Positions 12,949 to 62,706 of a stretch of 64,000 bases of DNA are shown here, in pieces. Numbering within the stretch: position 1 is the stretch's first letter; each line of letters opens with the position of its first letter. The translations under genes and the position numbers were made by a program. The notes below the pieces were generated by a model. It was given only the letters and a program-made list of their open reading frames with translations. It made no database searches and was not told the DNA's origin. The DNA is taken from positions 62,001 through 126,000 of the forward strand of contig NZ_PJJJ01000031.1 of assembly GCF_002929495.1 (NCBI RefSeq). Direction: 5' to 3'. The stretch is from Cryobacterium sp. Y82. GTDB lineage: Bacteria > Actinomycetota > Actinomycetes > Actinomycetales > Microbacteriaceae.

Positions 12949-13047
12949 AATACCGGGCTAGGCCCTGAGGCCTGATTCCCCTCCATTTTGACCTGGCACG
13001 GGGGAAGTGTGTCAGGGCAAAAACGGCTGGGAGTCAGGCACCAGGGG

Positions 13048-47193: not shown

Positions 47194-47194
47194 G

Positions 47195-48318: not shown

Positions 48319-48776
48319 CGGCCCTGCCGAAGGAGTGCGGCGGTCTGGCGCCACGTCGACGGCGACAGGATCGACCCGACTAGCGGAGCAGAGGGGACGG
48401 GCGGCGCTACGCGAGCCGCGTCATCCGCTTCAGCTGCGGCCAGGGATCGGGCGAACGCCGTCGCTGGTGCCGATTGCGACCCGCCCAGCACCGAAATGGC
48501 GGCGTCGAGGGTCGACGTTGTCGTGGGCACAAGGGATTTCTCGTGCAGCACGGTCACGGCCTGCTCGGTGACGCCGAGAACGAGGCGCGTTCCGTCGACC
48601 TCGACGACGACAACGGATGCCTTCTGCCCGATGGGCTGACGGCCGACGACGGTCACCGGGTTGGCGATACCCAATGCGCGCGCCCCGCGCGACAGGCGTC
48701 GCTGCAGGTACCAGAGCAGTGCGAGAACCACGCCCAGTGACAGGGCGACTCGCACCGCAACAATGAGGGTGTCCAC
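48315..48776 (-). CDS. fliO: Flagellar biosynthesis protein FliO
   Basis: A 153-residue bitopic protein that helps assemble FliP in the export gate. One membrane segment (about 5-24: LIVAVRVALSLGVVLALLWYL) is followed by the cytoplasmic FliO domain IANPVTVVGRQPIGQKASVVVVEVDGTRLVLGVTEQAVTVLHE. GTG directly follows the fliN stop. Sequence conservation of FliO is low, but the domain and position agree. Confidence 0.88.
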   Translation of the reverse strand: MDTLIVAVRVALSLGVVLALLWYLQRRLSRGARALGIANPVTVVGRQPIGQKASVVVVEVDGTRLVLGVTEQAVTVLHEKSLVPTTTSTLDAAISVLGGSQSAPATAFARSLAAAEADDAARVAPPVPSAPLVGSILSPSTWRQTAALLRQGR

Positions 48777-49484
48777 TTACGACAGGCCATCCGCTACATC
48801 GAGAATTTGGGTAATGCGCACGGCGTAGTCCTGGTCGACGACGACGATTTCGCCGTGGGCAATCAGTCGACCGTTCAGGAGAATATCGGCCGGGGCTCCC
48901 GCCGAGCGATCCAGCTCGATGACAGCACCCGGTTTGAGCGACAAGACGTCACGCACGGACATACGGGTGCGCCCGATTTCAACCGTCAACGACATTTCGA
49001 CGTTGCTGATGCGCCCGAGGTTGCCCAGAGCTGTGCGCTCTGGCATCGATCCCGGCCCGCCGACAACTCCGTTCTGACGCAGCCGAATGCCAAACCAACC
49101 GGTCACGACCCCGCCCGCGCTCAGTTCAAAAACCTCAGTCTCTTCCGCGGCGAACAATGCGGAGGCGTCTTCGACCCGGGAATCGCCGAGCACGCCGATT
49201 CCGAGCACTCCGGAGGCGCTCTCCAGGGCGGGACGCAGAACGTCCTGGCTGGAGACGAGCTGCGAGTTCGCCCCTGCAGCGGCGTCGAGTGACGCAGAGT
49301 CGGTGAGCACAACGGCCAGGTCCGCGGAAGTCGTACCCACAAACGAGGCCACCACGGCCGAACCAATGCGCGATGTTAATTCGGCGCTGCCGAGGTGTGG
49401 CAGTGCTTGTAACGGTACCGTCGTAGGCAACACGCGAATGAGCGCGTCGACGGCAACTTCAGGAATAGATCGGGTAGAAATCAT
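48777..49484 (-). CDS. fliN: Flagellar motor switch protein FliN with FliY-like N-terminal extension
   Basis: Rotor (C-ring) component. The C-terminal 80 residues form the SpoA/surface-presentation domain (VEMSLTVEIGRTRMSVRDVLSLKPGAVIELDRSAGAPADILLNGRLIAHGEIVVVDQDYAVRITQIL). The first 140 residues are extra compared with enterobacterial FliN and resemble the longer FliY group, though I see no clear phosphatase motif. ATG overlaps the fliM stop. In Bacillus the FliY extension binds CheY-P; whether this one does is unknown. Confidence 0.88.
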   Translation of the reverse strand: MISTRSIPEVAVDALIRVLPTTVPLQALPHLGSAELTSRIGSAVVASFVGTTSADLAVVLTDSASLDAAAGANSQLVSSQDVLRPALESASGVLGIGVLGDSRVEDASALFAAEETEVFELSAGGVVTGWFGIRLRQNGVVGGPGSMPERTALGNLGRISNVEMSLTVEIGRTRMSVRDVLSLKPGAVIELDRSAGAPADILLNGRLIAHGEIVVVDQDYAVRITQILDVADGLS

Positions 49485-50392
49485 TGGGCTGTTTCCTCGG
49501 TATCAGTGACGATGCAGGCCAGCCGGGAACCGTTGACTCCGACGGCCGCGCGGGCCAGCGACTGGCCGTCAACGGTCAGATTGAGCGGACGATGCTGGGG
49601 ATGCGGAACGTGCAGAACATCGCCGACCGCCAGCGACAGAATGCGACTGGGCAGTACGTGGGCGGTCTCGAGTCGAAGCGATACGTCAACCGGTACGGCC
49701 GCGATCTGGGCCTGCAGAAGTTCCGCAGCGTTCGACATGGTGCTCGTGGGGTTCGCTTCGCCGAGTTGCGGCATCAGGGCCGCAGCGGGAATCGCCACCG
49801 TTGCCGTGGCGGTGACCTTTTCCACTCGAATCGCGAAGGTCGCGACCACCATCAGGTCGCCGGTTGCCGCCGCCTGCGCGAACTGCGAGTTGTACTGAAT
49901 GGCTTCGACGCCCATTTCATCAACGATCAACGGCCCGAAGGAATAGCGCAGGTCTTCGAGGCTTTCCGAAATGAGCTTGCGAATCAGGGCCAGCTCGATC
50001 TGGGTGAAGTTGCGTTCAGCCAGCACCGGGATGCTGCTGTTGCCGCCGAGCATATGGTTCACCCAGGTGAGGGCCGACGTGGTCGGAAACTGAATAACTG
50101 CTCGGGCTTCCAGGCCGGCGACCGTGCACAGCACCATGGCGGTTTTCGGCGGCAGCGATCCCGCGTACTCGTCGTAGGTGGCCATGAGCACCTGCTCGCA
50201 GGTCACCGTGCAGAGCACGCGTACGCGTGCGGTCAGCTGGGTGCCCCACTGCCGCGCAAAAGTCTCAAAGGCCAGTTCCAAAACGCGGGCGTGTTCACGC
50301 GCCAGGGTGGTGGGCCGCCGAAAGTCGTACAGCTCAATGCTTCTTACCGCTTTAGCGAGCGCACTGTTGCCGACCTGATCCTGGACTGTCAC
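49481..50392 (-). CDS. fliM: Flagellar motor switch protein FliM
   Basis: Rotor switch subunit joining FliG and FliN. The 303-residue product has the FliM middle domain (YDFRRPTTLAREHARVLELAFETFARQWGTQL and later FTQIELALIRKLISESLEDLRYSF) and a C-terminal SpoA-like domain. The usual N-terminal CheY-binding peptide (LSQxEIDALL) is missing: no other start codon lies in frame before the preceding stop, so this is not an annotation artefact. GTG start has no clear ribosome-binding site; 72 bases separate it from motB. Confidence 0.92.
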   Translation of the reverse strand: MTVQDQVGNSALAKAVRSIELYDFRRPTTLAREHARVLELAFETFARQWGTQLTARVRVLCTVTCEQVLMATYDEYAGSLPPKTAMVLCTVAGLEARAVIQFPTTSALTWVNHMLGGNSSIPVLAERNFTQIELALIRKLISESLEDLRYSFGPLIVDEMGVEAIQYNSQFAQAAATGDLMVVATFAIRVEKVTATATVAIPAAALMPQLGEANPTSTMSNAAELLQAQIAAVPVDVSLRLETAHVLPSRILSLAVGDVLHVPHPQHRPLNLTVDGQSLARAAVGVNGSRLACIVTDTEETAQ

Positions 50393-50464
50393 GTTGGGAC
50401 TATCGACCGGCCCGGCCGAAAAGTAAGAGATCTCTGCTAGCGGATGCCCCGCGTCGGTTTACGG

Positions 50465-51322
50465 TCAGTTCTCGGCGGCCAAGCCGGGAATGAGTGCCCG
50501 CACGCTGTCCGGCTGGTTTGACAGCAGCACGATATCGACTCGGCGGTTCTGTGCCATGTCCGCGAGTGTGGATCCGGTGTTCGCCGGCTGGGCCGATCCA
50601 AAAGCGACGGCGGATATCAGGTCTCCGGCGACGCCACCCTGCTCCACGATGCGACGCAACACCTGGGTAGCTCGGCTCGCCGACAATTCCCAGTCGGTAG
50701 GGAAAGTGGCGGATTGACCGTGTTTGTCGGCGTGCCCTTCAACCGAAATTTTCTGCGCGGTGGCCACGAGGGCCGGCGCTGCGGCATCGAGCACCGTGAT
50801 CGCAGCCGCAGTGAGCTGGGCGCTGTCCGGTGCGAAGAATGTTTCACTCCCGACCAGCCCCAGGGTCAAGCCACGGTCGGTGATGTGAAATTCCACGAGG
50901 TCGGCGACCCCGGCTTCAGTCAGGCTAGCGGTGACGGCAGTCTCGAGCTGATTCAGCTTCACGACCTCCTGCGTGGCTGCTTCGGCGTTTGCCAGTGCCT
51001 GGGCGGTCGCGTCGGCCGGGTCGAGAGCATCGGCTGAGTGGGTGACTTCCGTGGGTGATTCGCCCTTGTTGTCGACGAGGTCAGCCGGAACGACGACTCC
51101 CTCAGCGGTGTCGACCTTGCCCGCATCCACCGCTCCAAAACCGGTGGCCAGGGAGTTGGCCAGCTGCTCGTACTTGTCCTGGTCGACGGTCGACATGGCG
51201 AACAGCACGATGAACATACACATCAGCACGGTGACCATGTCCATGTACGAGGCCATCCACCGTTCATCGGGGTGAACGTCCTCGTCGTCAACCATTTTGC
51301 GGCGCCTGGCCCGCACGCTCAT
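50465..51322 (-). CDS. motB: Flagellar motor stator protein MotB
   Basis: Stator subunit that anchors to peptidoglycan. The 285-residue product has a short cytoplasmic tail, one membrane segment containing the proton-path aspartate (Asp28 in SYMDMVTVLMCMFIVLFAMS), a long linker, and an OmpA-like peptidoglycan-binding domain (ISVEGHADKHGQSATFPTDWELSASRATQVLRRIV, QPANTGSTLADMAQNRRVDIVL). ATG overlaps the motA stop (ATGA). Hydrophobic sequence does not clearly say proton or sodium, though the Asp-Met-Val-Thr pattern fits the proton type. Confidence 0.95.
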   Translation of the reverse strand: MSVRARRRKMVDDEDVHPDERWMASYMDMVTVLMCMFIVLFAMSTVDQDKYEQLANSLATGFGAVDAGKVDTAEGVVVPADLVDNKGESPTEVTHSADALDPADATAQALANAEAATQEVVKLNQLETAVTASLTEAGVADLVEFHITDRGLTLGLVGSETFFAPDSAQLTAAAITVLDAAAPALVATAQKISVEGHADKHGQSATFPTDWELSASRATQVLRRIVEQGGVAGDLISAVAFGSAQPANTGSTLADMAQNRRVDIVLLSNQPDSVRALIPGLAAEN

Positions 51323-52191
51323 GCCGCTTCGGGAAGGTCTTTGTCCTTCCCCTTACCCTTGCCGCTGGTCTTGGTCTTGGACTTGGCGGCTGCACCGGCG
51401 GTATCCGCAGCGCCGTCCTTGCCCTTGGCACCGACTTTCGGCAGCAGCTCAGCGGGAACCATGGCGCGCAGGCGTTCCCCGAGGAGGCGTGGCTGACTGC
51501 CGGCCTGCACGGCCAGGGCGCCTTCCATAACGAGAGTCATGCGGTCGGCCTCGAGGTCGGCCAGGCGGCGCAGGCGCGAGCCGAGCGGTAGCCAGATGAA
51601 GTTGGCCGAGAGCAGGCCCCAGAGTGTCGCGACGAAGGCGGCCGCGATCATCGGTCCCAGTGTCGCGGGCGTGTCCAGGTTCTCAAGAACGTGGGTCAAC
51701 GATACGACCGTGCCGATGATGCCAACCGTCGGGGCATACCCACCGAGGCCGGTGAAGAATTTGGCGGCATTCCGATTCGACCGAGCCTCTGTCGCGATCT
51801 CGTCCTCGAGGAGCATCCTCAGTTCATCTCCGTCGGTCCCGTCGGCGATGTTCTGCAGGGCGCCGCGCAGAAACGGATCCTTGACGTTGTCGGCCTCCTG
51901 GTCGAGCGCGAGCAGGCCGGAACTGCGGGCGGTTTCGGCCAGTCCAACGACCTGGTCGATAACGGACTGCGGCGGCGTGGTCTTGCCGAGGAACGCTCCG
52001 GGGAGTGCCTTGAAGGCAGACGTGAAGTCTTTGATCGTGCCGCCCGCGAGGCCGACCGCAATGGTCGCACCGAAGACCAAAATCATGGGCGCCGGCAGAA
52101 GGATGGACATGACAGAGGAATGTTCGAGGGTGATCATGGCAACGAGGGCACCGAAGGCGAGTACGAGGCCGATCAGAGTTGCGGGATCCAC
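51319..52191 (-). CDS. motA: Flagellar motor stator protein MotA
   Basis: Stator ion-channel subunit. The 290-residue product shows four membrane segments; GGYAPTVGIIGTVVSLTHVLENL and MIAAAFVATLWGLLSANFIWLPLGSRL are the conserved third and fourth segments. A C-terminal Lys/Gly/Ala-rich tail (from about residue 258) is unusual and probably cytoplasmic. GTG start overlaps the flbD stop as TAGTG. Confidence 0.94.
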   Translation of the reverse strand: MDPATLIGLVLAFGALVAMITLEHSSVMSILLPAPMILVFGATIAVGLAGGTIKDFTSAFKALPGAFLGKTTPPQSVIDQVVGLAETARSSGLLALDQEADNVKDPFLRGALQNIADGTDGDELRMLLEDEIATEARSNRNAAKFFTGLGGYAPTVGIIGTVVSLTHVLENLDTPATLGPMIAAAFVATLWGLLSANFIWLPLGSRLRRLADLEADRMTLVMEGALAVQAGSQPRLLGERLRAMVPAELLPKVGAKGKDGAADTAGAAAKSKTKTSGKGKGKDKDLPEAA

Positions 52192-52424
52192 TAGAGCTTC
52201 CTGGGGCCTCGTGGCAGGTCCCCGGCGCTCGGGTCGTATGCTAGTGCGATGACGTGGGCACGGTAGCTGGCGATTTTCTCGATTACGTCTTCCATAGATT
52301 CGGTGACGATGAAGTTGGCGCCGTCGACCATGACCAGGGTTGTATCGGGGTTCGCGTGGATGCGCTCGATCAGGTCCGGGTTAATCGCAAAGTGACTGTC
52401 ATTCAGCCGCGTAAGTACGATCAT
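52191..52424 (-). CDS. flbD: Flagellar FlbD-family small protein (SwrD-like)
   Basis: A 77-residue protein of the FlbD family (MIVLTRLNDSHFAINPDLIERIHANPDTTLVMVDGANFIVTESMEDVIEKI). In Bacillus the homologue SwrD raises motor torque, and the gene here directly precedes motA, in line with that. ATG 52424 is taken because it begins the family and has AGGA 8 bases upstream; a hairpin CTCGA-ACGAC-TCGAG (52438-52452) lies just ahead of the ribosome-binding site and could modulate it. The longer open frame starts 13 codons earlier. Confidence 0.88.
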   Translation of the reverse strand: MIVLTRLNDSHFAINPDLIERIHANPDTTLVMVDGANFIVTESMEDVIEKIASYRAHVIALAYDPSAGDLPRGPRKL

Positions 52425-52542
52425 GTGCTCATCCTGTCTCGAACGACTCGAGGGAGGCGTCATGGTGTACTGTCGGCCGCCGCGCCGCTCATGTTAGCTG
52501 GCGCGGCTAGCCAGTTCGTCGGCCGCTTGCGTACAAAGACGC

Positions 52543-52571
52543 CTCTGGCCCCGACAGGTGCGGGGCCAGAG
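52543..52571 (-). terminator. Strong hairpin after flgE
   Basis: CTCTGGCCCCG (52543-52553) pairs perfectly with CGGGGCCAGAG (52561-52571) over a 7-base loop, 18 bases past the flgE stop. On the minus strand it is followed by GCGTCTTTGT, so there is only a weak T run. It probably separates or attenuates the flgB-flgE message from flbD-motAB. Confidence 0.7.
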
Positions 52572-52589
52572 AACTTCAGGATCGAGCGA

Positions 52590-53786
52590 TTACCGCTTCA
52601 GGTTGGTCAGCTCCTGCAGAACCTCGTCTGAGGTGGTGATGATTCGAGCGTTGGCCTGGAAGCCGCGCTGGGCGACGATCAGGTTGGTGAATTCCTGCGA
52701 CAAATCGACGTTGGACATTTCGAGCGCTCCGCTGGTCAGCGAGCCGAGGCTGCCGGTGCCGGCGGTTCCGAGTTCGGCGCCGCCGGAGTTGAAGGTGGCG
52801 CGGTACGCGGAGGAACCGGCCTTTTCGAGCCCGCCCGGGTTGACGAAGGTGGCGAGGGCGATGCGACCGATGGCCTGTTGCTGGCCATTGCTGAACAGGC
52901 CAACGAGGGTTCCGTCAGCGCCGAGCGTGTAGGAGTTGAGGGTGCCGGCCTCGCTGCCATCGTCGGTGTCGCCGGCAACGGTGTCGAGTTCGGCGAAGCC
53001 CCTGACATCGTCAAAGTTCATGAGAATACCGTCGAACGTGAAGTTGGCGCCGGCGACGGTTGTGAACTTGCCCGTTGGTCCATTGGCGTCGGTCTCGGCG
53101 GTGAGTTGAAGCGGTGTCGTCGAGGGATTCTTCGGATCGGATACGGTCCAGCCGGTGGCGGTACGAGTGAAAGTCAGTGACACCGTGCGGGCTACTCCCA
53201 GCTCGTCGTATACATCGATGGTGCGCGGCGCGAGTGTGGTGTTTTCTGCCGTATCCGACGGCAGGTTGCCGCTGAAGGTCGCGGCGGTCGAAGCGGAAGC
53301 CGGCACGATCGCGCCAACCGGCAGGGTCATGTTTCCGGTGGCTCCGCCAGCGTTGACGACTCCGTTGGTTGCGCCCCAGCCCTGCACGATCGCGCCGTCG
53401 GGCGAGACTAGTCGCCCAGCCGAATCGAAGTTGAAAGAACCGGCCCGGGTGTAGAGGGTTTCTCCGCCGAGCGACGTGACGAAGAAGCCGTCGCCGTTGA
53501 TCATGAAGTCGGTGGTCTTGCCGGTCGCCTGCGAGGACCCCTGGGCGAAGTTCGTGGAGATTCCCGCTACCTGCACACCGAGGCCGACCTGGGCCGGGTT
53601 GGTACCACCGGTAGTGGCCGTGGCGCCGCCAGCGGCCTCGGTCAGCTGCGACAAGGTGTCTTGAAACTGAGCGGCGGACGCCTTGAATGCCGTCGTATTC
53701 ACGTTGGCGATGTTGTTACCGGTCACGTCGAGCATGGTCTGGTGCGAACGAAGGCCAGAGATACCGGAGTAGAGAGAACGAAGCAT
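52590..53786 (-). CDS. flgE: Flagellar hook protein FlgE
   Basis: Exported structural subunit of the hook. The 398-residue product has the rod/hook N-terminus MLRSLYSGISGLRSHQTMLDVTGNNIANVNTTAFKASAAQFQDTLSQ, the loop GDGFFVTSLGGETLYTRAGSFNFDSAGRLVSPDGAIVQGW, and the C-terminal SNVDLSQEFTNLIVAQRGFQANARIITTSDEVLQELTNLKR. ATG preceded by GAAAGG. Length is normal. Confidence 0.95.
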   Translation of the reverse strand: MLRSLYSGISGLRSHQTMLDVTGNNIANVNTTAFKASAAQFQDTLSQLTEAAGGATATTGGTNPAQVGLGVQVAGISTNFAQGSSQATGKTTDFMINGDGFFVTSLGGETLYTRAGSFNFDSAGRLVSPDGAIVQGWGATNGVVNAGGATGNMTLPVGAIVPASASTAATFSGNLPSDTAENTTLAPRTIDVYDELGVARTVSLTFTRTATGWTVSDPKNPSTTPLQLTAETDANGPTGKFTTVAGANFTFDGILMNFDDVRGFAELDTVAGDTDDGSEAGTLNSYTLGADGTLVGLFSNGQQQAIGRIALATFVNPGGLEKAGSSAYRATFNSGGAELGTAGTGSLGSLTSGALEMSNVDLSQEFTNLIVAQRGFQANARIITTSDEVLQELTNLKR

Positions 53787-53849
53787 GGGATGCTGCCTTT
53801 CAGAAAAGAATTATGCGGTGCTGTTGATGGGTCGAGGACAAGCCGCGGA

Positions 53850-54320
53850 TCAGGCCGCAGTCGTCGCCTCCGCGGCGTCTTCGGTGTCTTCGGCACGGGC
53901 GCTGGTCACGCCGGAAATAACATCAAGGGCCACCGGTTCACCGTTGACGGTAACCGTAGGCACGGGGCCGGCGAACGAAACCGACGAAACGAGCCCCGTG
54001 ACTTCGGCGCCGTCGGGGTCGGTATAGGTGACCGTCTCCCCTACCAGGGCTGCCGCCGAGGTGCGCATCTGCAGGGAGAAGCCCTCCCCACTGGCCGTGG
54101 CCATTTCGGTGAGCTTTTCCATCATGGCGAGCTGGGTGGTCTGGGCGATCATCTCGTTGGTATCCATCGGGGCGCTGGGATCCTGGTTTTGCAACTGCGT
54201 CACCAGCAACGACATGAACACCTCCGAGTCCATGGACTGGTTGGGGGTGCGCGTCGTGGTCGTGGACGAGTACATTCCGGTCGGAGCGGCGGCAGTGGCC
54301 GCCACGGCGTCGATTGTCAC
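53850..54320 (-). CDS. flgD: Flagellar hook-capping protein FlgD
   Basis: Scaffold for hook assembly. The 156-residue product has the conserved MDSEVFMSLLVTQLQNQDPSAPMDTNEMIAQTTQLAMMEKLTEM and a short C-terminal half; it is shorter than enterobacterial FlgD (about 230), lacking much of the tail. GTG 54320 has AGAAGGAG seven bases upstream, between it and the fliK stop. Followed by flgE. Confidence 0.92.
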   Translation of the reverse strand: MTIDAVAATAAAPTGMYSSTTTTRTPNQSMDSEVFMSLLVTQLQNQDPSAPMDTNEMIAQTTQLAMMEKLTEMATASGEGFSLQMRTSAAALVGETVTYTDPDGAEVTGLVSSVSFAGPVPTVTVNGEPVALDVISGVTSARAEDTEDAAEATTAA

Positions 54321-54333
54321 GATTTTTCTCCTT

Positions 54334-55803
54334 CTAAGCCAGTACGTCGATGGTGTGGGTGGATCCGAATTGGGGTGGTCGCTGCTCCTGGGGAGTGTCC
54401 GGTGCTCGATTGTCCGGTCTACGAGCGTCGGGATTGCGTCCGTCAACCTCGGAGCGGGGCTGGCGGGTAGCACTGGGATTGCCGGCCTGGCTATCGGATG
54501 ACAGGTCGAGCTGGGCGCTCAGCCCGGAACCGGCGAGGTCACGCCGCAGGTCGGGCAAAATCACACGCAGGGCCTCTCGGGCCAGGTCGGTAGGAGCGAA
54601 CAGCTCCACCCGAATGCCCTCCCCCGTCACGTGCGCCCGCACGGTGACCGGTCCCAGATTGTCGGGCGACACGCTGATGGTCAATACATGCTCGCCGGGA
54701 GCCGCGGTGGCGAGCGAGAACAGCGGCTTCATGATCTGCGCGGCGAGCGGCAGGGCAGTAGCCGAAGCGGGTGCAGCCACCACGGTGGCCGTTGGGGTCG
54801 ACACCGCGAGGGGAACCGAAGTGGGTGCGGCGGGTGACGAGGGGGTGACGGCTTCGGTGCCGGCGCCTCGCCCGGTCAGCCGCACGGAGTCCGGCAGCGC
54901 GGAGCCAGCCGCTCCCGTGCGCTCTAACGCGGCGTTCTGTGCCGCACCGGTCTGTGCCGCACCGGCCTGTGCTGCACCGGCCTGAGCTGCACCAGCCTGT
55001 GCTGCACCGGGAAGGCCAGGGGCACCGACCGATGTCGCAGCTCCGGCGGATGCTGACGCGGCCGGGACCGGCAACACGGTGGCAGCCCCTGCGGCATCAG
55101 AAGTGGCTGCTGCCGAGGCGGTGGCGCCGACCGCTGTCGCCGCCGCTTTACCGGAAGCGCTCGGAGCGGCTGCCGTGACGACGGAGGCGAACGCCGTGGC
55201 GGTCGGCCCTGCGGCGTCGGCACTGCCTCTGGGTAATGCAGCAGCGGTGGTGCTCACTGCGGCGCCGGGAGTCGATGGTGCGGGGATCGTTGACACGGCG
55301 GCTGGGATATTCGACGCCGCCGAACCGGCCGCCGCTCCCAGGGTGCCGGCACTTGCAGCCAGGCCCGCAGCGGCCGATGTGAGAGGTGCCGCCGTATCGA
55401 TTATGCTCCAGCCAGTCCCCGAAGCCGAGGTGCCCGAATGAGGCATACCGTCGACCGCGACTGTTGCCGTGGACATCACGCTTGGGGCCGCCCCGCCGCC
55501 GTTGGCCAGCGTCAGAGTCGCCGAGAACAGCATGGGGACCACCGGAATGGCGGCATCCGCTGTGACGGAATCAAGGCGTGTTGGGGACACCGACAACGTC
55601 GCCCCAGCTGCAAAATCCCCCTCCTGGTCCCCCTTCGGCTCCGTCGACACCGGAGCCGAAGAAGCGTCAAGGTCCGCCGCAAGGGTGTCATCCATGATGG
55701 CCCCGAAGGTGTCGGCACCCGGCGAAATCGACTTTGTCTCGCGGGGAGCAGAGGGCGCGGGCGGCGCTGCAGCTGTCCGAAATTGACCGAGGGTGAGACT
55801 CAT
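54334..55803 (-). CDS. fliK: Flagellar hook-length control protein FliK
   Basis: Exported molecular ruler that triggers the FlhB switch. The 489-residue product is very Ala/Ser/Thr/Pro-rich for most of its length, as ruler regions are, and ends in the hook-length domain (EHVLTISVSPDNLGPVTVRAHVTGEGIRVELFAPTDLAREALRVILPDLRRDL). A GAAQA-type five-residue repeat encoded by tandem 15-bp units lies about residues 265-289. ATG overlaps the stop of the NlpC/P60 gene. The open frame upstream of 55803 is not credible. Confidence 0.88.
   Translation of the reverse strand: MSLTLGQFRTAAAPPAPSAPRETKSISPGADTFGAIMDDTLAADLDASSAPVSTEPKGDQEGDFAAGATLSVSPTRLDSVTADAAIPVVPMLFSATLTLANGGGAAPSVMSTATVAVDGMPHSGTSASGTGWSIIDTAAPLTSAAAGLAASAGTLGAAAGSAASNIPAAVSTIPAPSTPGAAVSTTAAALPRGSADAAGPTATAFASVVTAAAPSASGKAAATAVGATASAAATSDAAGAATVLPVPAASASAGAATSVGAPGLPGAAQAGAAQAGAAQAGAAQTGAAQNAALERTGAAGSALPDSVRLTGRGAGTEAVTPSSPAAPTSVPLAVSTPTATVVAAPASATALPLAAQIMKPLFSLATAAPGEHVLTISVSPDNLGPVTVRAHVTGEGIRVELFAPTDLAREALRVILPDLRRDLAGSGLSAQLDLSSDSQAGNPSATRQPRSEVDGRNPDARRPDNRAPDTPQEQRPPQFGSTHTIDVLA
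54937..55011 (-). repeat. fliK: Five tandem 15-bp units inside fliK
   Basis: Five copies of a CTGTGCYGCACCGGC-like unit run from 54937 to 55011 with one to three differences each, coding for repeated Gly-Ala-Ala-Gln-Ala in the ruler region. In-frame loss or gain of units would change the length of FliK. Confidence 0.85.
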
Positions 55804-56468
55804 AGTGCGCTTCCCGTAACTATTGAGTTCTGCTGGGCGAAAGCGGCAAAAGCGGCGTTGAGCCTGTCGGCAGAGCCGGCGCCCGTGACAGCGGTGTCGG
55901 TCGGAATGATCCGGCGGATGGTGGTGATGTCGGCATCCGTCATATATGCCTCTCGCAGGCAAACGGTACGGCCCGGATACGGCGCATGAATGACCTTGTT
56001 ATCGCCGGCGTAGATAAGAATGTGGTCGCCACCGCCGGTGACGATGAGGTCGCCAGGCTGGGCTTCGGCGAGGGAAGCGACCTCGGTTCCCATCTTCATC
56101 TGCCCCGACACGAGTCGCGGCAGTTCTATTCCGATATCGGCGTAGACGGTCTGCACGAGTCCGGAGCAGTCCATTCCGCTGGAATCTTCACCACCGAACA
56201 CGTAGGGCACCCCAAGGTATTTCTCCGCGGAGGCGACCACGTCGGTGCCGGTCGCGCCCGCGCCCGACCCGGTCGCGCTGGGTGCGGTCGTGCCGGCGGT
56301 GCCGAGCGCCGCTGCCAGGGTCGCTGCGAAGCTCCCAGCCGAGACGGACGCCGCAGCGGTCGTCGCCGCTGCGGCCGTTGTCGTTACCCGGTCTGCAGAC
56401 ACGCCGGAGAGCTGCTGCAGAGTGGCCTGGATCTGGCTGATTCGCCCCATGGCCGCGATCATCGTCAT
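55800..56468 (-). CDS. NlpC/P60 peptidoglycan peptidase in the flagellar operon
   Basis: A 222-residue protein with an Ala/Thr-rich first 75 residues and a C-terminal NlpC/P60 domain: YLGVPYVFGGEDSSGMDCSGLVQTVY (catalytic Cys101), GDHILIYAG (His149) and VIHAPYPG (His161) give the usual triad. There is no clear signal peptide, so it may be exported through the flagellar gate. The gene lies between fliJ and fliK and overlaps both (ATGA), so it is co-translated; by position it may open the wall for rod passage, as FlgJ does elsewhere. Function is inferred. Confidence 0.85.
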   Translation of the reverse strand: MTMIAAMGRISQIQATLQQLSGVSADRVTTTAAAATTAAASVSAGSFAATLAAALGTAGTTAPSATGSGAGATGTDVVASAEKYLGVPYVFGGEDSSGMDCSGLVQTVYADIGIELPRLVSGQMKMGTEVASLAEAQPGDLIVTGGGDHILIYAGDNKVIHAPYPGRTVCLREAYMTDADITTIRRIIPTDTAVTGAGSADRLNAAFAAFAQQNSIVTGSAL

Positions 56469-56929
56469 GGTGTCTCCTGCTCGGTCATCGTGGCGGTGTC
56501 GCTCGTGGCGGTATGTGAGCGATGCCAGCGTGCCCCGGCAATTTCGTCGAGCACGGTCTGTTCCGCGTGCTGGTCTGCCGCCAGCAGGGCGGCAGCGTGC
56601 CGTTCGTGCAGTTTTTCAAGCGCGACCGACTCGGCCCTGGCCGCGTTGTACGTAATCTGGGCGGAGTCCAGGCTCTCCTGGTAGTTGCGGCCAACGGCTT
56701 CGAGCTCGGCCAGCATGCTGCGCGACGACGATCGCGCCGCTGCCATGGCGTTGAGAGCGGCGATGGTTTGCGGGGAATTGCCCAGGGCACCGAGCGCGGT
56801 GCGGGCGCGCCCATGGCGGGCCTCGCTCGCCGCCACCCGGGCGTTCGCTTCGGCGAGGTCGAGGGCAGCCTGGTCCTGCTGCAGCCTGCGCAATCGCAGC
56901 AATCCGGCGAGGGGAAAGAGGCGGCTCAT
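56465..56929 (-). CDS. fliJ: Flagellar export chaperone FliJ
   Basis: A 154-residue, almost entirely alpha-helical coiled-coil protein, rich in Ala, Glu, Arg and Leu (MSRLFPLAGLLRLRRLQQDQAALDLAEANARVA). FliJ acts as the central stalk of the FliI ATPase ring. Position between fliI and the NlpC/P60 gene, with stop-start overlaps on both sides, supports the call; sequence alone would be only suggestive. Confidence 0.82.
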   Translation of the reverse strand: MSRLFPLAGLLRLRRLQQDQAALDLAEANARVAASEARHGRARTALGALGNSPQTIAALNAMAAARSSSRSMLAELEAVGRNYQESLDSAQITYNAARAESVALEKLHERHAAALLAADQHAEQTVLDEIAGARWHRSHTATSDTATMTEQETP

Positions 56930-58263
56930 GCCATGGCCCCGAACGCACGAGTCAGTCGGGTGAGCTGGGCCCAGGCCTGCTCGCTGGGAGTCTGGTCGTT
57001 CATCCGCTGCTGGAGAAAGGCTTTGATGGCCAAGTCATTCTCAACTGCCGCATCGACCAGCGGGTTGGTGCCGACCCGGTAGGCTCCGACGTCGAGCAGG
57101 TCCTGCGCGCCCTGACGGGCCGCCATCACCGTGCGCAGCGTCGTCGCGATCGCGTTTCGTTCCGCACTGTTCACCCGCGCGGCAACGCGAGAAATGGAGG
57201 CGAGTACATCGACCGACGGAAAATGGCCGGTGATTGCGAGCTTACGGTCGAGCACGACGTGACCATCAAGTATGGACCGCGCCGCATCTGCGATCGGTTC
57301 GTTGTGGTCATCACCGTCGACGAGCACGGTGTAAATTCCGGTGATCGAGGCGGTTTCACCGGTTCCGGCGCGTTCGAGCAGTCGAGCAAGCACCGAGAAC
57401 GTCGAGGGCGGGTAGCCACGGGTAGCCGGCGGTTCACCGACCGAGAGGCCGATTTCGCGCTGGGCCATAGCGACCCGGGTGAGCGAGTCCATCATGAGCA
57501 TGACGTCGGAGCCCTGATCGCGAAACGATTCCGCGATGCGGGTCGCGGTGAACGCAGCGCGCAAGCGCATCATCGCGGGTTCGTCGGAGGTCGACACGAC
57601 GACTATGGAGCGGGCCAGGCCTTCCGGGCCGAGGTCGTCCTCAAGAAACTCGCGAACCTCACGCCCACGCTCCCCCACCAGTGCGATGACCGAGACCTGG
57701 GCATCCGTTCCGCGGGCGATCATAGACAGCAGGGACGACTTTCCAACGCCGGAGCCGGCAAACAGGCCCATTCGCTGGCCGCGGCCAACCGTCGTGAGCG
57801 TGTCGAGCACCCGCACGCCGAGGTGCAGCGGGGTCGTGATGCGCGCACGGTGCATGGCCGAGGGGCTGTCATGTTCCAGGGAGACGAAGCCGTCGGAATC
57901 GAGCGGGCCCTTGCCGTCAATTGGGCGTCCCAAGCCGTCGATGACGCGTCCGAACAGGCCGCGACCGGTGGGCACGAGGAGCGGCGAGCCGGCCGATCGC
58001 ACGCGCGCACCGGCCTGCAACCCGGTAATGCGGCCGAGCGGCATGCATCGGATTCCCGTCTGAGTGGTGGCGACGACTTCAGCCTCGATGCCTGCCTGGC
58101 CCGGTCGGGCGCCGAGCGTGACAATGTCACCGATTGCCGAGCGCAAGCCGCGCACCTCCACGCCCAGACCAACAATGGAGGACACGATACCGACCCGCTC
58201 CGGGCGACCGGCTTCGAGTGCCTGCACGAGCTGCGCGGGGCGCGGGCGCCAGGCGGTGATCAT
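56926..58263 (-). CDS. fliI: Flagellum-specific ATPase FliI
   Basis: Hexameric ATPase of flagellar export, related to F1-beta. The 445-residue product has Walker A AGSGVGKS (169-176), VSVIALVGERGREVREFLEDDLG, the Walker B stretch SDVMLMMDSLTRVAMAQREIGLSVGEPPATRGYPPSTFSVLARLLERAG and SITGIYTVLVDGDDHNEPIADAARSILDGHVVL. ATG overlaps the fliH stop. Confidence 0.97.
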   Translation of the reverse strand: MITAWRPRPAQLVQALEAGRPERVGIVSSIVGLGVEVRGLRSAIGDIVTLGARPGQAGIEAEVVATTQTGIRCMPLGRITGLQAGARVRSAGSPLLVPTGRGLFGRVIDGLGRPIDGKGPLDSDGFVSLEHDSPSAMHRARITTPLHLGVRVLDTLTTVGRGQRMGLFAGSGVGKSSLLSMIARGTDAQVSVIALVGERGREVREFLEDDLGPEGLARSIVVVSTSDEPAMMRLRAAFTATRIAESFRDQGSDVMLMMDSLTRVAMAQREIGLSVGEPPATRGYPPSTFSVLARLLERAGTGETASITGIYTVLVDGDDHNEPIADAARSILDGHVVLDRKLAITGHFPSVDVLASISRVAARVNSAERNAIATTLRTVMAARQGAQDLLDVGAYRVGTNPLVDAAVENDLAIKAFLQQRMNDQTPSEQAWAQLTRLTRAFGAMA

Positions 58264-58877
58264 GCTTCGACCTCGGCGAGGGCTGCTTTTGCGCGCGCGA
58301 ACGCCGTGCTAATACGCGCGTCGAGAAAGCCGTCGCTGAACTCGGCGATGGCGTCACCCCGCTTGAGCCGGGAATCCCCAACAAAACGGATGCTCTCCAG
58401 CGCTCGCGTCTGCGCCCCCAGCACCACGAGGTCCTCCGGATGCAGGCGGATGCTGTGCACCTCGCTGCGATCGAGCTGGTCTGGCTGGTGCAGGGCGCGT
58501 TCGAGAGCGCGGCGGGCCGACGGTTCGGTATGGCTAAGTTCACAGCCGAGAATGGCTTCGGCCAGTTGCAGAGACGTGTTGACAAGCGTGGCTTCCGCCT
58601 GCTGGATGAGCGGAATGCTTCGTTCATTGAGGGCACGGGCGGCGGCAGCGAGCAAACGCACCGCGTGGTCGACCCGCGCTTCACCGAAGCGTTCGTTCTC
58701 GGCGTGCTCGGCGTTGATCTCGTCGGCGCGCCTGGCGACGTCCGCGGCCGCCAGCCGTAGCCCCTCGGTGTAGCCGGCGGCGTGGCCCTCGGCGCGCGAC
58801 TGCTCGTCGACGCGGTCTTGTTCCTCGTCGCGCAGCCGCGGAAAAGCCATCAGGCCGAACCCGGTGTCAGTTGACAT
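58260..58877 (-). CDS. fliH: Flagellar assembly protein FliH
   Basis: A 205-residue regulator of the FliI ATPase. The N-terminal part has a helical, charged segment with GHAAGYTEGLRLAAADVARRADE (GxxxG-like spacing typical of FliH), the C-terminal part the domain LQLAEAILGCELSH and GDAIAEFSDGFLDARI. ATG 58877 overlaps the fliG end by 11 bases; the longer open frame inside fliG is not used. Confidence 0.88.
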   Translation of the reverse strand: MSTDTGFGLMAFPRLRDEEQDRVDEQSRAEGHAAGYTEGLRLAAADVARRADEINAEHAENERFGEARVDHAVRLLAAAARALNERSIPLIQQAEATLVNTSLQLAEAILGCELSHTEPSARRALERALHQPDQLDRSEVHSIRLHPEDLVVLGAQTRALESIRFVGDSRLKRGDAIAEFSDGFLDARISTAFARAKAALAEVEA

Positions 58878-59883
58878 ATTCGTCCTCGGCACCGCGCTGC
58901 ACCGTGATGCTGCCCTGCGCTTCCATATCGCGAATAGCGCGCACGATTTCGGCACGGGCGTCTTCAACCTGACGCATCCGCACCGGTCCGAGGCTCTTGG
59001 TTTCGTCGTCGAGTACGTCGCGGTTGCGCTCAGAGAGGTTGGCGCGAATGACCTCGGCGACGGCATCGGACGTGCCCTTCATGGCCATAGCGAGCACGGT
59101 CGTGTCGATGCCGCGCAGAACCTGCTGCACGTCCCTGCTCTCCAGCTTGACGATGTCGGCAAAGGTGAGCATGCGAGAACGAATCTCTTCGGCCAAGGCC
59201 GGGTCGCGTTCCTCGAGCCCTTCCAGAAGTGCACGCTCCGTGGCGGCATCCGCTCGGTTGATGATGTCGACGAGCGGCTGCACGCCCCCGACCACCTCGA
59301 TCCTCTCGCGCGCGACGATCTTGCCGGTGCGCAACTTGAGCGTGTCGGTGACGACACGAATGGCTTCGGGCGTCGCGCTCGACATGGTCGCGATGCACTG
59401 GGCCACGTCGGTGCGCAGGCCAGGGTCCATTCCGGCCAAAATAGCGGATGCCTGGTCGCGCCGCAGGTGCGCCAACACCAGCGCGATGGTCTGGGGCATT
59501 TCACCGTCGAGCAGGTTGAGCACATCGCCGGGCTCGGAGGGATCTAGAAACTCAAAGGCCTTGCCGGCCATCGAGGTGGCGACCCGGTTCATGACACCGG
59601 CTGCGCGCTCGGCGCCAAAGGACGCTTCGAGCAGGCCGACGGCGAATTCGTGCCCCCCACGGGAGAGCCGGCGACCCTTCAGGGTGATCTCGTGGAATTC
59701 GTTGAGCGTGGACTCGGCGACGGCCGGGTCGACGTTGCGCAGCTGCACGATTTCGCCGGCGATGACTTCAGCTTCGATATCGCTGAACTGCTTCATGACC
59801 TCGGTTGCGCGCTGGCGATCCATGTTCATGAGTACGACGGCAACTTTTTGGGTGCCGGTCAGCGCTGCGCCTGGCTCGTTCAT
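58867..59883 (-). CDS. fliG: Flagellar motor switch protein FliG
   Basis: Rotor protein that transmits torque from the stator. The 338-residue product has LTGTQKVAVVLMNMDRQRATEVMKQFSDIEAEVI, the middle domain LNLLDGEMPQTIALVLAHLRRDQASAIL (here MPQ in place of the common EHPQ) and the C-terminal domain TFADIVKLESRDVQQVLRGIDTTVLAMAMKG. ATG overlaps the fliF stop. Usual length. Confidence 0.96.
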   Translation of the reverse strand: MNEPGAALTGTQKVAVVLMNMDRQRATEVMKQFSDIEAEVIAGEIVQLRNVDPAVAESTLNEFHEITLKGRRLSRGGHEFAVGLLEASFGAERAAGVMNRVATSMAGKAFEFLDPSEPGDVLNLLDGEMPQTIALVLAHLRRDQASAILAGMDPGLRTDVAQCIATMSSATPEAIRVVTDTLKLRTGKIVARERIEVVGGVQPLVDIINRADAATERALLEGLEERDPALAEEIRSRMLTFADIVKLESRDVQQVLRGIDTTVLAMAMKGTSDAVAEVIRANLSERNRDVLDDETKSLGPVRMRQVEDARAEIVRAIRDMEAQGSITVQRGAEDEYVN

Positions 59884-61496
59884 GCGCGTTGCCGGTCATC
59901 CATGAGGCCACGCAGGAACTCGGCCGTGCTGCGCGGGTCGGACTGCGCCAGGGAATCGATCTCGGCACGGCGAAGGTCGGTGTCGGTCGGCACGAACTTG
60001 ACGGTCGGAATTATCTTGGTGGGGCTGTCGGTCGGATTGTCGAGGAACAGGGAGCCGGCCGACGACGTCACGGAGAGCGGGACAGTGGCCTCTCCGAGCG
60101 CATTCTGCATTGCGGTGAGATCGCCGATCTCGACCGATTCCCGGCTCTGGCGACGTGACCGGCGTGCGTAGAGAATAAGGCTGACCACGAGGGTGACGAC
60201 GATTCCCACGGTGATCACCGACACCCGCAGAATCTCGGTGAGCTGTGCAGCGGCCGCGGCATCCGCTGCTGCCTTGAGCGCTGCGGCGGCAGCGGCGGCC
60301 CCCGTGGTGTCGAAGGCCACGACCTCGACGGTCACGGCATCGCCGCGCACGGCGTCGATTCCGGCAGCCGAGGTGACGAGCGAGGTGATGTCGGCCACGT
60401 TGAGGTTGGCTGCGGCATCGGCATCGACGGCCACGGAGACCGTCTGACGGGTGATGGCTCCGGCCGGAATGGTGCGGCTCTCGGTGACCTTGTTCACGGC
60501 GTTGTTGCGGGTGGTCGACTCGCTCGAGAACGTGCCGTCGGTGGCACCATCGGCCACGGCCGCCGTGTCGGAGCCGAGCACGCCGGCGGCACTGCCTCCG
60601 GTACCCGAGTAGGTCTCGGTGTCGACGGATTCGTTGAGGGCGGGGGTCTCGATCGGAGCGGTGAAGGACTCTTCGACCCGTTCGGCCGATTCGTAGCTCA
60701 TATCAGCGGCGACGACGACGGTGGCGTTACCGGCACCGACGACCTTGTCGAGCATGGCCTGCACGGCGCTGCGCACGCGAGTCTCATAGTCGGAGGCCTG
60801 CTGGTCGGCTCCTCCTGTGGCCCCGACGCCGACGGCAGAGAGCACCGCACCGCTCGAGTCGACCACGGCCACGTCGGCGGCCGTCATACCGTCGATCGAA
60901 GCGCTGGTCAGGTGCACGATCGCTTGAACCTGGTCGTTGGAGAGCGAAACACCGTTTTGGGTTTCCACGAAAACGGATGCCGTGGGGTCGTTCTTCTGCG
61001 ACACGAACACGCTGTCTTCGGGGATAGCGAGCTGCACGGAGGCCATTTTGACTCCGTCGAGGGCACCAATAGTCTTGGCCAGTTCGCCCTCGAGCGCTCG
61101 CTTATAGGTGACCGACTGCTGAAACTCGCTCGAGGTCACGCCCATGGTGTCGAGCAGGGAATACCCGCCGGTGCTGGAAGTAGGCAGGCCAGCCGAGGCC
61201 GACTTGATGCGCTCGTCGTAGACGCTCGCTTCCGGCACCAGAATCGTGGCGCCGCCGTCGGCGAGCTCGTATTCGACTCCGTCGGTGCGCAATTGTTCGA
61301 CGATGCTGTTGGCGTCTTCGCCGCTGAGGCCGGAGAACAGGGGCGTGAAAGCCGGCTTGGTGATCCACATGCTGAGTGCGGCGATGCCGAGTATAAGCAC
61401 GGCGACGCCGATGATGGCGACCGTACGCTGGGCAATGGTGAACTCGCGAATCGCGTTTCCGAAGCGCTTGAAGGCGCTGGTGACTTGCCGGGGCAT
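59880..61496 (-). CDS. fliF: Flagellar MS-ring protein FliF
   Basis: Forms the membrane MS-ring on which the flagellum is built. The 538-residue product has a first membrane segment (about 24-45), extracellular ring-building domains including GLSGEDANSIVEQLRTDGVEYEL and the YKRALEGELAKTIGALDGVKMASVQLAIPE block, a second membrane segment near residue 435-455, and a short FliG-binding C-terminus. Start ATG overlaps the fliE stop (TGATG). Confidence 0.95.
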   Translation of the reverse strand: MPRQVTSAFKRFGNAIREFTIAQRTVAIIGVAVLILGIAALSMWITKPAFTPLFSGLSGEDANSIVEQLRTDGVEYELADGGATILVPEASVYDERIKSASAGLPTSSTGGYSLLDTMGVTSSEFQQSVTYKRALEGELAKTIGALDGVKMASVQLAIPEDSVFVSQKNDPTASVFVETQNGVSLSNDQVQAIVHLTSASIDGMTAADVAVVDSSGAVLSAVGVGATGGADQQASDYETRVRSAVQAMLDKVVGAGNATVVVAADMSYESAERVEESFTAPIETPALNESVDTETYSGTGGSAAGVLGSDTAAVADGATDGTFSSESTTRNNAVNKVTESRTIPAGAITRQTVSVAVDADAAANLNVADITSLVTSAAGIDAVRGDAVTVEVVAFDTTGAAAAAAALKAAADAAAAAQLTEILRVSVITVGIVVTLVVSLILYARRSRRQSRESVEIGDLTAMQNALGEATVPLSVTSSAGSLFLDNPTDSPTKIIPTVKFVPTDTDLRRAEIDSLAQSDPRSTAEFLRGLMDDRQRA

Positions 61497-61801
61497 CAGG
61501 CTTGCATCCTCATGATCTCGTTGAACGCGTCGACACCTTTATTACGCACGGCGGCGACGAGTTCCATGGTCACCTGGGCGCGGGTGGACGCGATGGTGGC
61601 GGTGTGAATGTCACCCAGGTCACCGGTGACGGCCTGAATGGCGAGAGTGTTGGAGGTGCCCTGCAACTGTTGCAGGTTGTCAACGGCACCCGAGAGAGCG
61701 GCGCCGAAGCCCGAGCCGTCGGTGCGCTGCGTGGCGGTCGTTGCCGAGGTTCCCATGACCCCGGAGAGGGCGGTGGTCGCGTTGATAGCGCCAAGTGGCA
61801 T
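61496..61801 (-). CDS. fliE: Flagellar hook-basal body protein FliE
   Basis: Small 101-residue exported protein joining the MS-ring and rod. The second half, GTSNTLAIQAVTGDLGDIHTATIASTRAQVTMELVAAVRNKGVDAFNEIMRMQA, is characteristic. ATG overlaps the flgC stop (TGATG). Confidence 0.93.
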   Translation of the reverse strand: MPLGAINATTALSGVMGTSATTATQRTDGSGFGAALSGAVDNLQQLQGTSNTLAIQAVTGDLGDIHTATIASTRAQVTMELVAAVRNKGVDAFNEIMRMQA

Positions 61802-62187
61802 CAGCCACGTCCGATCTGTAGTGCTGCTTCATAGGCAGTTTTGGCCCGGTCGACGACGGCGGCATTGGCCTGGTAGCCACGCTGGGCCATGATGAGGTGG
61901 CCCATCTGCTCGGCCATGTCGATGTCGGGGTAGCGCACGTAACCATCGGCATCGGCCAGCGGATGCTCCGGCTCGTAGACCAGGGTTCCCTCGGCGCCAC
62001 CGAATGCCGCGGTAGCGCTGGCGCCGACGTTACCGGGGCCTTCCTGCGCGAGAATGTAGCGTTCCTGAAAGGCGGCATCCGTTGTGGCGGTCACGGTGTT
62101 GGCATTGGCGAGGTTGTCGGCGATGGCGTCGAGCCACTTGCGGTGCAGCGTCATGCCGCTGCCGGCGATGCCGATGGCGTCGACCAT
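61801..62187 (-). CDS. flgC: Flagellar basal-body rod protein FlgC
   Basis: Proximal rod protein of 128 residues. The N-terminus MVDAIGIAGSGMTLHRKWLDAIADNLANANT and the C-terminus DIDMAEQMGHLIMAQRGYQANAAVVDRAKTAYEAALQIGRG form the paired helices of axial proteins. ATG overlaps the flgB stop. Confidence 0.94.
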   Translation of the reverse strand: MVDAIGIAGSGMTLHRKWLDAIADNLANANTVTATTDAAFQERYILAQEGPGNVGASATAAFGGAEGTLVYEPEHPLADADGYVRYPDIDMAEQMGHLIMAQRGYQANAAVVDRAKTAYEAALQIGRG

Positions 62188-62528
62188 CAGGCGGTCTTCA
62201 TCGCGGCGCGAATCGACGAGACCGGGCCTTCGACCGCCTTGGCGGCGAACTGGTAACGCAGCAGCGCGTCGATGTTGGCGAGGGTCTCGGTGTCGAGGTT
62301 CACGTTGTTGCCGTTGAGCAGCGTCGGGTCGAGCGAACGCTCCGTCGTCGCGGCCGAAACGCCGTTGCCGTCAGCGACCGATTTGGCCAGTGCGTTCTCG
62401 AACGAGACGACCTTGGCGTGGTAATCGGGGGTGTTGATATTGGCGATGTTGTTCGCGATGGTGCGCTGGCGTAGCGCGAGGCCGTCCAGGGCGCTCGTGA
62501 GGGCCAGGGAGGTCACGGAATCAAGCAT
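62187..62528 (-). CDS. flgB: Flagellar basal-body rod protein FlgB
   Basis: Proximal rod protein of 113 residues: MLDSVTSLALTSALDGLALRQRTIANNIANINTPDYHAKVVSFENALAKSV is the family signature and VNLDTETLANIDALLRYQFAAKAVEGPVSSIRAAMK the C-terminal helix. ATG 62528 fits the family start; a TTG seven codons upstream is possible. No good Shine-Dalgarno is seen. It is the first gene of a tightly coupled set down to flgE and is preceded by two GGA-bearing hairpins. Confidence 0.93.
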   Translation of the reverse strand: MLDSVTSLALTSALDGLALRQRTIANNIANINTPDYHAKVVSFENALAKSVADGNGVSAATTERSLDPTLLNGNNVNLDTETLANIDALLRYQFAAKAVEGPVSSIRAAMKTA

Positions 62529-62559
62529 GATTACCCGCTTCGTCGACAAAAGACAAGAC

Positions 62560-62598
62560 GGCCAATCCGTGGCCCGGTGGTGAGCAATCCGTGCTCAC
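62560..62598 (-). promoter_or_regulatory. Two tandem hairpins with CGGAT loops in the flgB leader, candidate CsrA sites
   Basis: Read on the minus strand, GTGAGCA-CGGAT-TGCTCAC (62598-62580) and GGCCA-CGGAT-TGGCC (62574-62560) are perfect hairpins with different stems but the same five-base loop, five bases apart, 32-70 bases before the flgB ATG. Both give A-C-GGA, the core recognised by CsrA, and a csrA gene ends the same cluster. An AAGGAG just upstream offers another GGA. Binding is inferred. Confidence 0.6.
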
Positions 62599-62706
62599 TC
62601 CTTGCTATCGGTCACCCCGACAGTTGCGTAAGCAGTTCGTATCAACATTCCGAAATTTTGTTGCGCTACGGCGTGTTGCCAGTGTTTTACTACCCTCGAA
62701 CGGGGG

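Follow-up and report, generated by a model that had tools for sequence, protein, structure and literature searches.

The leader of flgB, the gene at the head of a long flagellar gene run in Cryobacterium sp. Y82, carries two adjacent hairpins whose loops share the core A-N-GGA. It is likely, judging from comparison of related genomes, that this pair works as a CsrA operator on the flgB mRNA, irrespective of the sign of the control, and very probable that CsrA is the ligand of the twin hairpins. A CsrA-type RNA site before flgB had been suggested in an earlier note; the suggestion is supported on comparative evidence, that is, by hairpins located through their stems alone (the loops are ANGGA), by covariation in the second hairpin (HP2) and by the occurrence of csrA in 91/91 family genomes that have flgB. 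Here 'the window' is the whole stretch of 64,000 nucleotides that was analysed; the elements of the leader are as follows.

62605..62631, minus strand: FliA/WhiG-type promoter-like sequence, TTAC-N15-ACCGATAG
62598..62601, minus strand: probable transcription start, at the 5' base of HP1, placed from the promoter-like sequence
62598-62580, minus strand: HP1, GTGAGC-ACGGATT-GCTCAC, with loop A at 62592
62574-62560, minus strand: HP2, GGCC-ACGGATT-GGCC, with loop A at 62570
62187..62528, minus strand: flgB, flagellar rod protein, the first gene past the leader (TIGR01396, 69.7 bits, cut-off 59.05)

The leader is read on the minus strand, which is the sense strand for flgB, and runs from TTAC-N15-ACCGATAG (62631-62605) through HP1, 5 bases, HP2 and 31 bases to the flgB ATG at 62528-62526; the twin hairpins 5 bases apart that the earlier note described are both present. 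It had also given them a shared CGGAT loop on stems of 7 and 5 bp. The hairpins are real, but the A-U pair that closes the 5-base loop is not conserved; across relatives the hairpin unit is instead a 4-bp stem with a loop A-N-G-G-A-Y-N, and the core stems in the window are GAGC-ACGGATT-GCTC and GGCC-ACGGATT-GGCC. A background scan of 83 kb (the window plus 19 kb past its end, both strands) finds 34 ANGGA hairpins, HP1 and HP2 included, and the sole tandem pair is the one in the flgB leader; the twin hairpins exceed chance expectation. A covariance model of 78 relatives' leaders (from the best 80 of 317 flgB loci) matches the site in the window's genome at E 9.6e-12, as expected because a near-identical leader is included in the model; the next match, with 150 of 4228 first-look candidates scored, has E 0.08. 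The flgB protein of the window is a 100% match to that of Cryobacterium flavum. No family in Rfam 15 matches 62480-62720 up to E 10; the sole Rfam match at the gathering threshold in the window is the mraW RNA at 12953-13052 (minus). Upstream of the leader, the 108-aa gene at 62707-63033 (minus) follows fliS, where fliT might be expected, and has no NCBIfam or Pfam match.

The promoter-like sequence recurs in many relatives as TAAC-N15-GCCGATAG. Among the best 80 of 317 flgB loci, CGATA lies exactly 18 nt before the HP1 loop A in 59 and 19-21 nt before it in 11, and the exact pentamer is missing in 10. If the FliA consensus and the usual promoter-start distance apply to 62605..62631, as we assume, the RNA probably starts at HP1, because the FliA-like promoter sequence is directly upstream; with the start at or just before HP1, the two hairpins would therefore be the first structures made. 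The genome encodes a FliA-family sigma factor at L032:6044-6877 (TIGR02479, 126.8 bits, under the cut-off of 189.6). A second FliA-like promoter sequence, TTAC-N15-GTCGATAG, is located at 50400-50426 (minus), just before the ORF 49481-50392, which is fliM by gene position; because this sequence falls inside the run, the operon may have internal starts.

Conservation was assessed in a named set of the best 80 of 317 flgB loci, that is, the closest relatives: mostly Microbacteriaceae and Arthrobacter relatives, together with Cellulomonas, Georgenia, Intrasporangium, Actinotalea, Occultella, and Sinomonas. Both hairpins are present in 79 of these 80 loci, with one exception that has a mismatch in the HP2 stem (L084); the loss of loops or stems in close relatives, which the earlier note had thought would count against its claim, is not seen. 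Other tandem ANGGA hairpin pairs occur in the same loci at 3 per 992 kb (both strands), and the pair is also present in 29 of 30 anonymous family loci, a set that overlaps the named one. HP2 was considered as an intrinsic terminator and rejected: the T-rich stretch that follows it in Cryobacterium is not kept in relatives (best 80 of 317).

When the hairpins of the best 80 of 317 loci are located by the A-N-GGA motif itself, A, G, G, and A are present in 160/160 loops, a count that is partly by construction because of this way of locating them. The motif-anchored count being partly circular, the loops were recounted by stems alone, searching for GAGC-N7-GCTC (HP1) and GGCC-N7-GGCY (HP2) with the loop left free; this search matches HP1 in 78/80 and HP2 in 76/80 of the same loci, and the loops are ANGGA, which is the CsrA motif, in 78/78 and 76/76. 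In this set loop position 2 is C, G, T, or A in 64, 9, 6, and 1 loci for HP1 and in 60, 10, 9, and 1 for HP2; position 6 is mostly T, and position 7 is variable. The distance from loop A to loop A is 21-28 nt in the best 80 of 317 (21 nt in 2 loci, 22 in 40, 23 in 22, 24 in 13, 25 in 1, and 28 in 2; 22-24 nt in 75/80), which falls inside the CsrA bridging range of 10 to 63 nt, with an optimum above 18 (PMC7652899).

The two stems behave differently. In a wider set of 99 rows, HP1 has GAGC/GCTC in 97 and HP2 has GGCC/GGCC in 74, the other HP2 stems being CGCC/GGCG, GCCG/CGGC, GCCC/GGGC, GCCA/TGGC, and AGCC/GGCT. The HP2 stem co-varies across families: 105 of 108 cells in distinct rows pair, and 15 changes affect both sides, compared with a shuffle mean of 3.1. 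Neither value was reached in any of 1000 shuffles (0/1000), which ignore kinship, and the test leans toward pairing because the script chose the loop length with the longest stem; L184, for which the wrong pair was picked, is not counted. For HP1 covariation is almost nil because the stem hardly varies. An alignment of 78 of the 80 named loci (A1; best 80 of 317, near copies L045 and L057 left out) likewise shows little covariation, because it contains only close relatives with near-invariant stems. The idea in the earlier note of a fixed loop on a changing stem therefore holds between HP1 and HP2 but not between species for HP1 (97/99 near invariant), and the covarying stems with a fixed loop that it expected in aligned leaders are found for HP2 (15 compared with 3.1), HP1 being almost invariant.

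The stems also bear on whether the element acts as DNA, that is, as a transcription-factor operator immediately past the promoter, with the stems as palindromic half-sites. The near invariance of the HP1 arms GAGC/GCTC and the placement of the hairpin centres about two helical turns apart would suit such an operator, and flgB is known to be controlled at the DNA level in this phylum, with PhoP binding upstream of the gene in Actinosynnema pretiosum (PMC9019756). However, the shared centre is asymmetric and has the same orientation in both hairpins, and the HP2 arms change compensatorily (GGCC/GGCC, CGCC/GGCG, GCCG/CGGC, GCCC/GGGC), as RNA pairing would lead one to expect and a fixed DNA operator would not. 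In addition, the Actinosynnema PhoP site, GTTCACCC, sits 134-141 bp upstream of the transcription start (PMC9019756), and a search of the window's positions 61577-64000 for a PHO-box-like pattern gave no match. We regard a DNA operator as extremely improbable.

Beyond the close relatives, the class sample comprises 296 genomes, 33 with flgB over the cut-off; among the 27 class flgB loci read, a strict pair is found in 19, one strict hairpin in 6, and none in 2. When AGGA loops are allowed beside ANGGA, 38 of 47 loci from the class and the f8 family have the pair, a count that includes a doubtful case (L195, in which the picked pair is probably not the homologous one) and a set that does not contain L187 (one hairpin) and L203 (no hairpin). 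Pairs with quite different stems are present in G383, from the same order, and outside the class in G516, G632, G460, and G409. The flgB leaders read in groups f25, f22, and f13 show no pair, though most of these genomes have csrA, and G360, from the same order, has csrA and flgB and no such hairpins. These wider surveys do not include the phylum loci L125, L131, L140, and L146 (too short) and L014 (short contig); the class genomes G698, G717, G727, and G766 and several phylum flgB places also lie outside them.

The csrA gene tracks flgB. In a family sample of 299 genomes, flgB is found in 91 and csrA in 92; all 91 flgB genomes have csrA, and the extra csrA genome without a flgB match (G177) is listed as 88% complete. 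In 78 of the 91, csrA is downstream on the same strand at 11.5-51.3 kb; in the remainder the two genes are on different contigs (11) or opposite strands (2). Of the 61 flgB genomes in the phylum sample, 57 give a match to csrA; the match is absent in G381, G467, G495, and G623, and comparing hairpins with csrA absence is uninformative here, since csrA-bearing sisters in f25 and f21 are also without the pair.

The main rival for the identity of the ligand is an ANTAR-domain protein. The anatomy fits: an ANTAR target RNA is a pair of stem-loops whose hexaloops have A1 and G4 and which are joined by a linker of 2-25 nt (PMC8164766), and the flgB leader has two stem-loops, A1 and G4, and a linker in this range; ANTAR proteins are also encoded by 99/100 family genomes, the window's genome included. 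They are, however, encoded with or without flagella (flagellin is matched in 33/100 of these genomes), whereas csrA tracks flgB, and the details of the loops point away from ANTAR: G3 and A5 vary no more than A1 and G4, though ANTAR does not require them, the fitted loops are of 7 bases rather than 6 in 99/99 (HP1) and 88/99 (HP2) rows, and one AGGA-type loop, in which GGA is kept but the G4 register is broken, occurs in nine loci (L193, L195, L200, L201, L202, L252, L256, L259, and L264). Furthermore, a search of 118 twin leaders turned up no terminator-like hairpin, and neither 'flagell' nor 'motility' occurs in the main text of the ANTAR paper (PMC8164766). An ANTAR ligand is thus very unlikely, and CsrA is the ligand that we prefer.

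As a separate observation on genomes beyond the class, 8 of 29 leaders (L151, L153, L155, L156, L158, L161, L163, and L137) have a terminator-like hairpin and then a T-rich tract before flgB, compared with 1 of 28 farther-upstream control windows. Seven of the eight have GGA in the 5' arm (e.g., GGAGGAGGC..GCCTCCTCC-TTTT); these hairpins could be an attenuator opened by CsrA.

In the window, flgB and csrA are the two ends of one same-strand series of genes.

42256..62187, minus strand: same-strand run after flgB, from the ORF list and models
41935..42246, minus strand: csrA, the distal gene of the run (PF02599, 85.8 bits)

By model, the run contains flgC, fliE, fliF, fliI, nlpC/P60, fliK, flgD, flbD, motB, and fliO; the gene at 42256-43293 has no Pfam match. 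All of the scanned genes from flgB to csrA are on the minus strand and, save NlpC/P60 and 42256-43293, are flagellar; flgB to csrA is presumably one continuous operon. The earlier note had placed csrA at the other end of the cluster, and it is indeed the distal gene of the same-strand run that begins with flgB. The NlpC/P60 peptidase gene (55800-56468, minus) lies among flagellar genes and encodes a candidate wall hydrolase for rod passage. The csrA gene at 41935..42246 is the sole CsrA match in the genome, and its product retains L4, T5, R6, R44, V51, and N55 (positions counted on the alignment). L4, T5, and R6 are residues of known role in CsrA. The roles of R44, V51, and N55 are given in PMC7829508. 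The best solved-structure match of the window CsrA is 5DMB, which is the CsrA of G. thermodenitrificans, a protein with a C-terminal extension (PMC7829508). In Actinosynnema pretiosum, csrA is listed as adjoining fliW (PMC9019756).

The flagellin genes of the same genome have sites of their own. Three flagellin paralogs (L032:937-5506) are located just outside the window, and in each leader the promoter-like element GTCGATAG and a hairpin of the form GGCC(C)-ATGGAT are followed by CACGGAGGA or CATGGAGGA directly ahead of the start; a fourth, short flagellin-like start (L032, about 5800-6030) has an ATGGAT hairpin and CACGGAAGA. Among the best 30 matches to flagellin loci in the family, ANGGA is located <=25 nt from the start in 30/30, and a strict hairpin is present in 24/30 leaders. 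The flagellin leaders thus appear to carry a hag-like CsrA-type operator, with one site over the Shine-Dalgarno sequence. With a FliW gene also present in the window's genome, the parts of a FliW-CsrA-flagellin checkpoint are found, that is, the FliW gene, a CsrA with V51 and N55, and a flagellin leader site over the Shine-Dalgarno sequence. The earlier note had set flagellin as the target in Bacillus against the basal body here; the contrast is incomplete, as the flagellin leaders here carry sites too. We also observe that TCCGTGAC in flgB (62512-62519) is the 8-nt complement of the ribosome site GTCACGGA of the first flagellin paralog; trans pairing between the flgB and flagellin mRNAs is possible.

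A further element is located in the flgB coding sequence.

62514..62520, minus strand: anti-loop TTCCGTG in flgB codons 3-5, complementary to the CACGGA loops, with a putative function

Codons 3-5 of flgB are under nucleotide-level (synonymous) constraint. In 103 loci, D is encoded by GAT in 92%, E by GAA in 93%, S by TCC in 76%, and V by GTG in 80% of cases; from flgB codon 13 on, the corresponding values are 13%, 18%, 27%, and 39%. In flgC codons 2-8, GAT encodes D in 7% (n 89), with S and V too few to count. In flgB codons 6-12, TCC encodes S in 24% and GTG encodes V in 27%, and D/E codons end in T or A in 6/6; because of these shared A/T endings the D/E signal may be a general start effect, but S and V differ.

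The constrained sequence W-TCC-GTG is the complement of the loop CACGGAW. Among 103 loci, 72 have a Watson-Crick run of at least 6 between a loop and codons 2-9; the four control windows give 0, 0, 2, and 0 such loci. TCCGT occurs close to the start in 55/62 loci with C in both loops, in 9/16 with C only in HP1, in 12/15 with C only in HP2, and in 3/10 with C in neither, one of these three having it at codons 7-8. For HP2, the association of C at position 2 with TCCGT has a raw p of 6.7e-5 with kinship ignored; it is not significant in the tree-controlled test, where independent pairs are too few (2.1 same, 0.2 opposite, and 7.6 no difference of 10), and neither is that for HP1 (1.4 same, 1.4 opposite, and 6.2 no difference of 9). 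The association is mixed in 38 other loci (TCCTT 6/12 vs 1/26, TCCAT 4/8 vs 3/30, TCCGT 8/27 vs 1/11, and TCCCT 0/7 vs 2/31) and not significant on the tree.

For some relatives, folding predicts base pairs between the HP2 loop and codons 3-5; in the minimum-energy fold of the window's own sequence the partners are different. Exchanging tails between loci leaves the pairing about as strong as with a locus's own tail (loop 2, P 0.63 and 0.63). With the loops occupied, the start region is predicted to be more open in 87/103 loci, but also in 267/307 swapped constructs, and the predicted gain is small (mean unpaired 0.35 to 0.43). Pairing between loop and codons is our best guess for the cause of the codon constraint, and the complementarity is suggestive of a switch. 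The start codon itself varies: it is GTG in 63/80 relatives (L034-L113; best 80 of 317), and in f76 and some f8 loci it lies inside TCC-GTG or TCC-ATG.

From these elements, we tentatively propose a double-acting FliW-CsrA checkpoint in flagellated Actinomycetes, in which flagellin is repressed and the flgB-to-csrA operon is activated through the twin hairpins; the complete scheme is plausible, with the balance somewhat against it. The flgB leader would act as a CsrA operator with two sites, at the 5' end of a flagellar mRNA whose transcription depends on FliA, and one CsrA dimer would bind both ANGGA loops, bridging 22-24 nt. Bound CsrA would shield the mRNA 5' end, as on E. coli flhDC, and would keep HP2 folded; its loop could then not pair with the anti-loop in codons 3-5, and the start region would be open (cf. 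ymdA). The same CsrA would repress the flagellins through their hairpin and Shine-Dalgarno sites, with FliW as its antagonist. Backed-up flagellin would free CsrA, which would shut flagellin synthesis and promote basal-body synthesis, and csrA at the end of the run would close a feedback loop. If this is true, one RNA-binding protein would balance filament subunits against basal bodies in number and would feed back on the gene that encodes it.

Given a working operator, we put the chances of a positive sign at about even, with activation somewhat preferred to repression. CsrA might instead bind the twin hairpins and repress, by blocking ribosome entry or standby, so that free CsrA would stop the basal body and the filament together. 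Repression is the commonest outcome of CsrA binding (PMC7492729), the flagellin leaders of the same genome look like repressor operators, and some relatives (best 80 of 317) have GGA in the flgB ribosome site too. However, in the window 31 nt separate the end of HP2 from the start, and in relatives (best 80 of 317) the HP2 loop A lies 32-67 nt before the start; the window's presumed ribosome site, GAAGCGGG, is without GGA; and, if the anti-loop pairing is real, the start region would be closed without CsrA and not with it. We take repression seriously, although on this evidence we find it doubtful.

It is unlikely that the leader serves chiefly to titrate CsrA, a role that the flaA leader of C. 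jejuni can play, instead of controlling flgB. The twin loops do resemble the flaA leader, which has two hairpins spaced 21 nt apart and is the principal CsrA target in that species (PMC4894983), and FliA-driven transcripts could be abundant; however, flagellin transcripts have sites too and are probably more abundant, and the codon constraint points to a role in cis and therefore argues against titration. Against any CsrA operator on flgB, flgB was not enriched (1.6x) in CsrA co-precipitation from C. jejuni (PMC4894983). We continue to favour a CsrA operator that acts on flgB itself.

In the literature found, actinobacterial CsrA has so far been a gene beside flagellar genes, with flagellin as its only proposed target. 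No CsrA site on flgB in actinobacteria was found in open-licence papers, and an earlier description elsewhere is possible; the nearest prior statement in the available texts is the Kineococcus genome paper, which proposes CsrA control of flagellin (PMC2587704). A class-wide operator on the basal-body operon would give CsrA a definite second job, the balancing of filament subunits and basal bodies, and would be an RNA motif without an Rfam match whose codon-constrained anti-loop offers a clue to its mechanism. The flagellar genes of Actinoplanes missouriensis are reportedly all transcribed at once, with no transcriptional checkpoint (PMC8306008); a post-transcriptional checkpoint is therefore of interest in this phylum.

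Several known systems resemble the flgB leader in part. Kineococcus radiotolerans has csrA beside flagellar genes and a hag-like site proposed on flagellin (PMC2587704), and FliW control of CsrA has been proposed for the Actinobacteria in a list of phyla (PMC4682653); the available text of these two proposals makes no mention of a CsrA site on flgB. The ANTAR target RNAs of actinobacteria are also dual stem-loops with A1 and G4 (PMC8164766), but the flgB element has a GGA core, mostly 7-nt loops and linkage to csrA. The Bacillus subtilis hag leader is controlled by CsrA and FliW, and its two-site plan is common to the flagellin leaders of this genome (PMC2587704, PMC8306008); however, the operator there is on flagellin, whereas the flgB element consists of two hairpin sites, none over the ribosome site. 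Campylobacter jejuni flaA, in a genome with csrA and fliW, has two adjacent ANGGA loops 21 nt apart, but flaA is a flagellin gene and its second motif is over the ribosome site (PMC4894983). In the Escherichia coli flhDC leader, two CsrA sites lie close to the 5' end, and CsrA protects this flagellar mRNA; flhDC encodes a master regulator (PMC7652899), whereas the operon here is structural. Finally, at Escherichia coli ymdA, CsrA acts at two leader sites to undo a ribosome-blocking structure, which results in activation (PMC7492729); in flgB, by contrast, the blocking partner would be the coding sequence itself, in codons 3-5.
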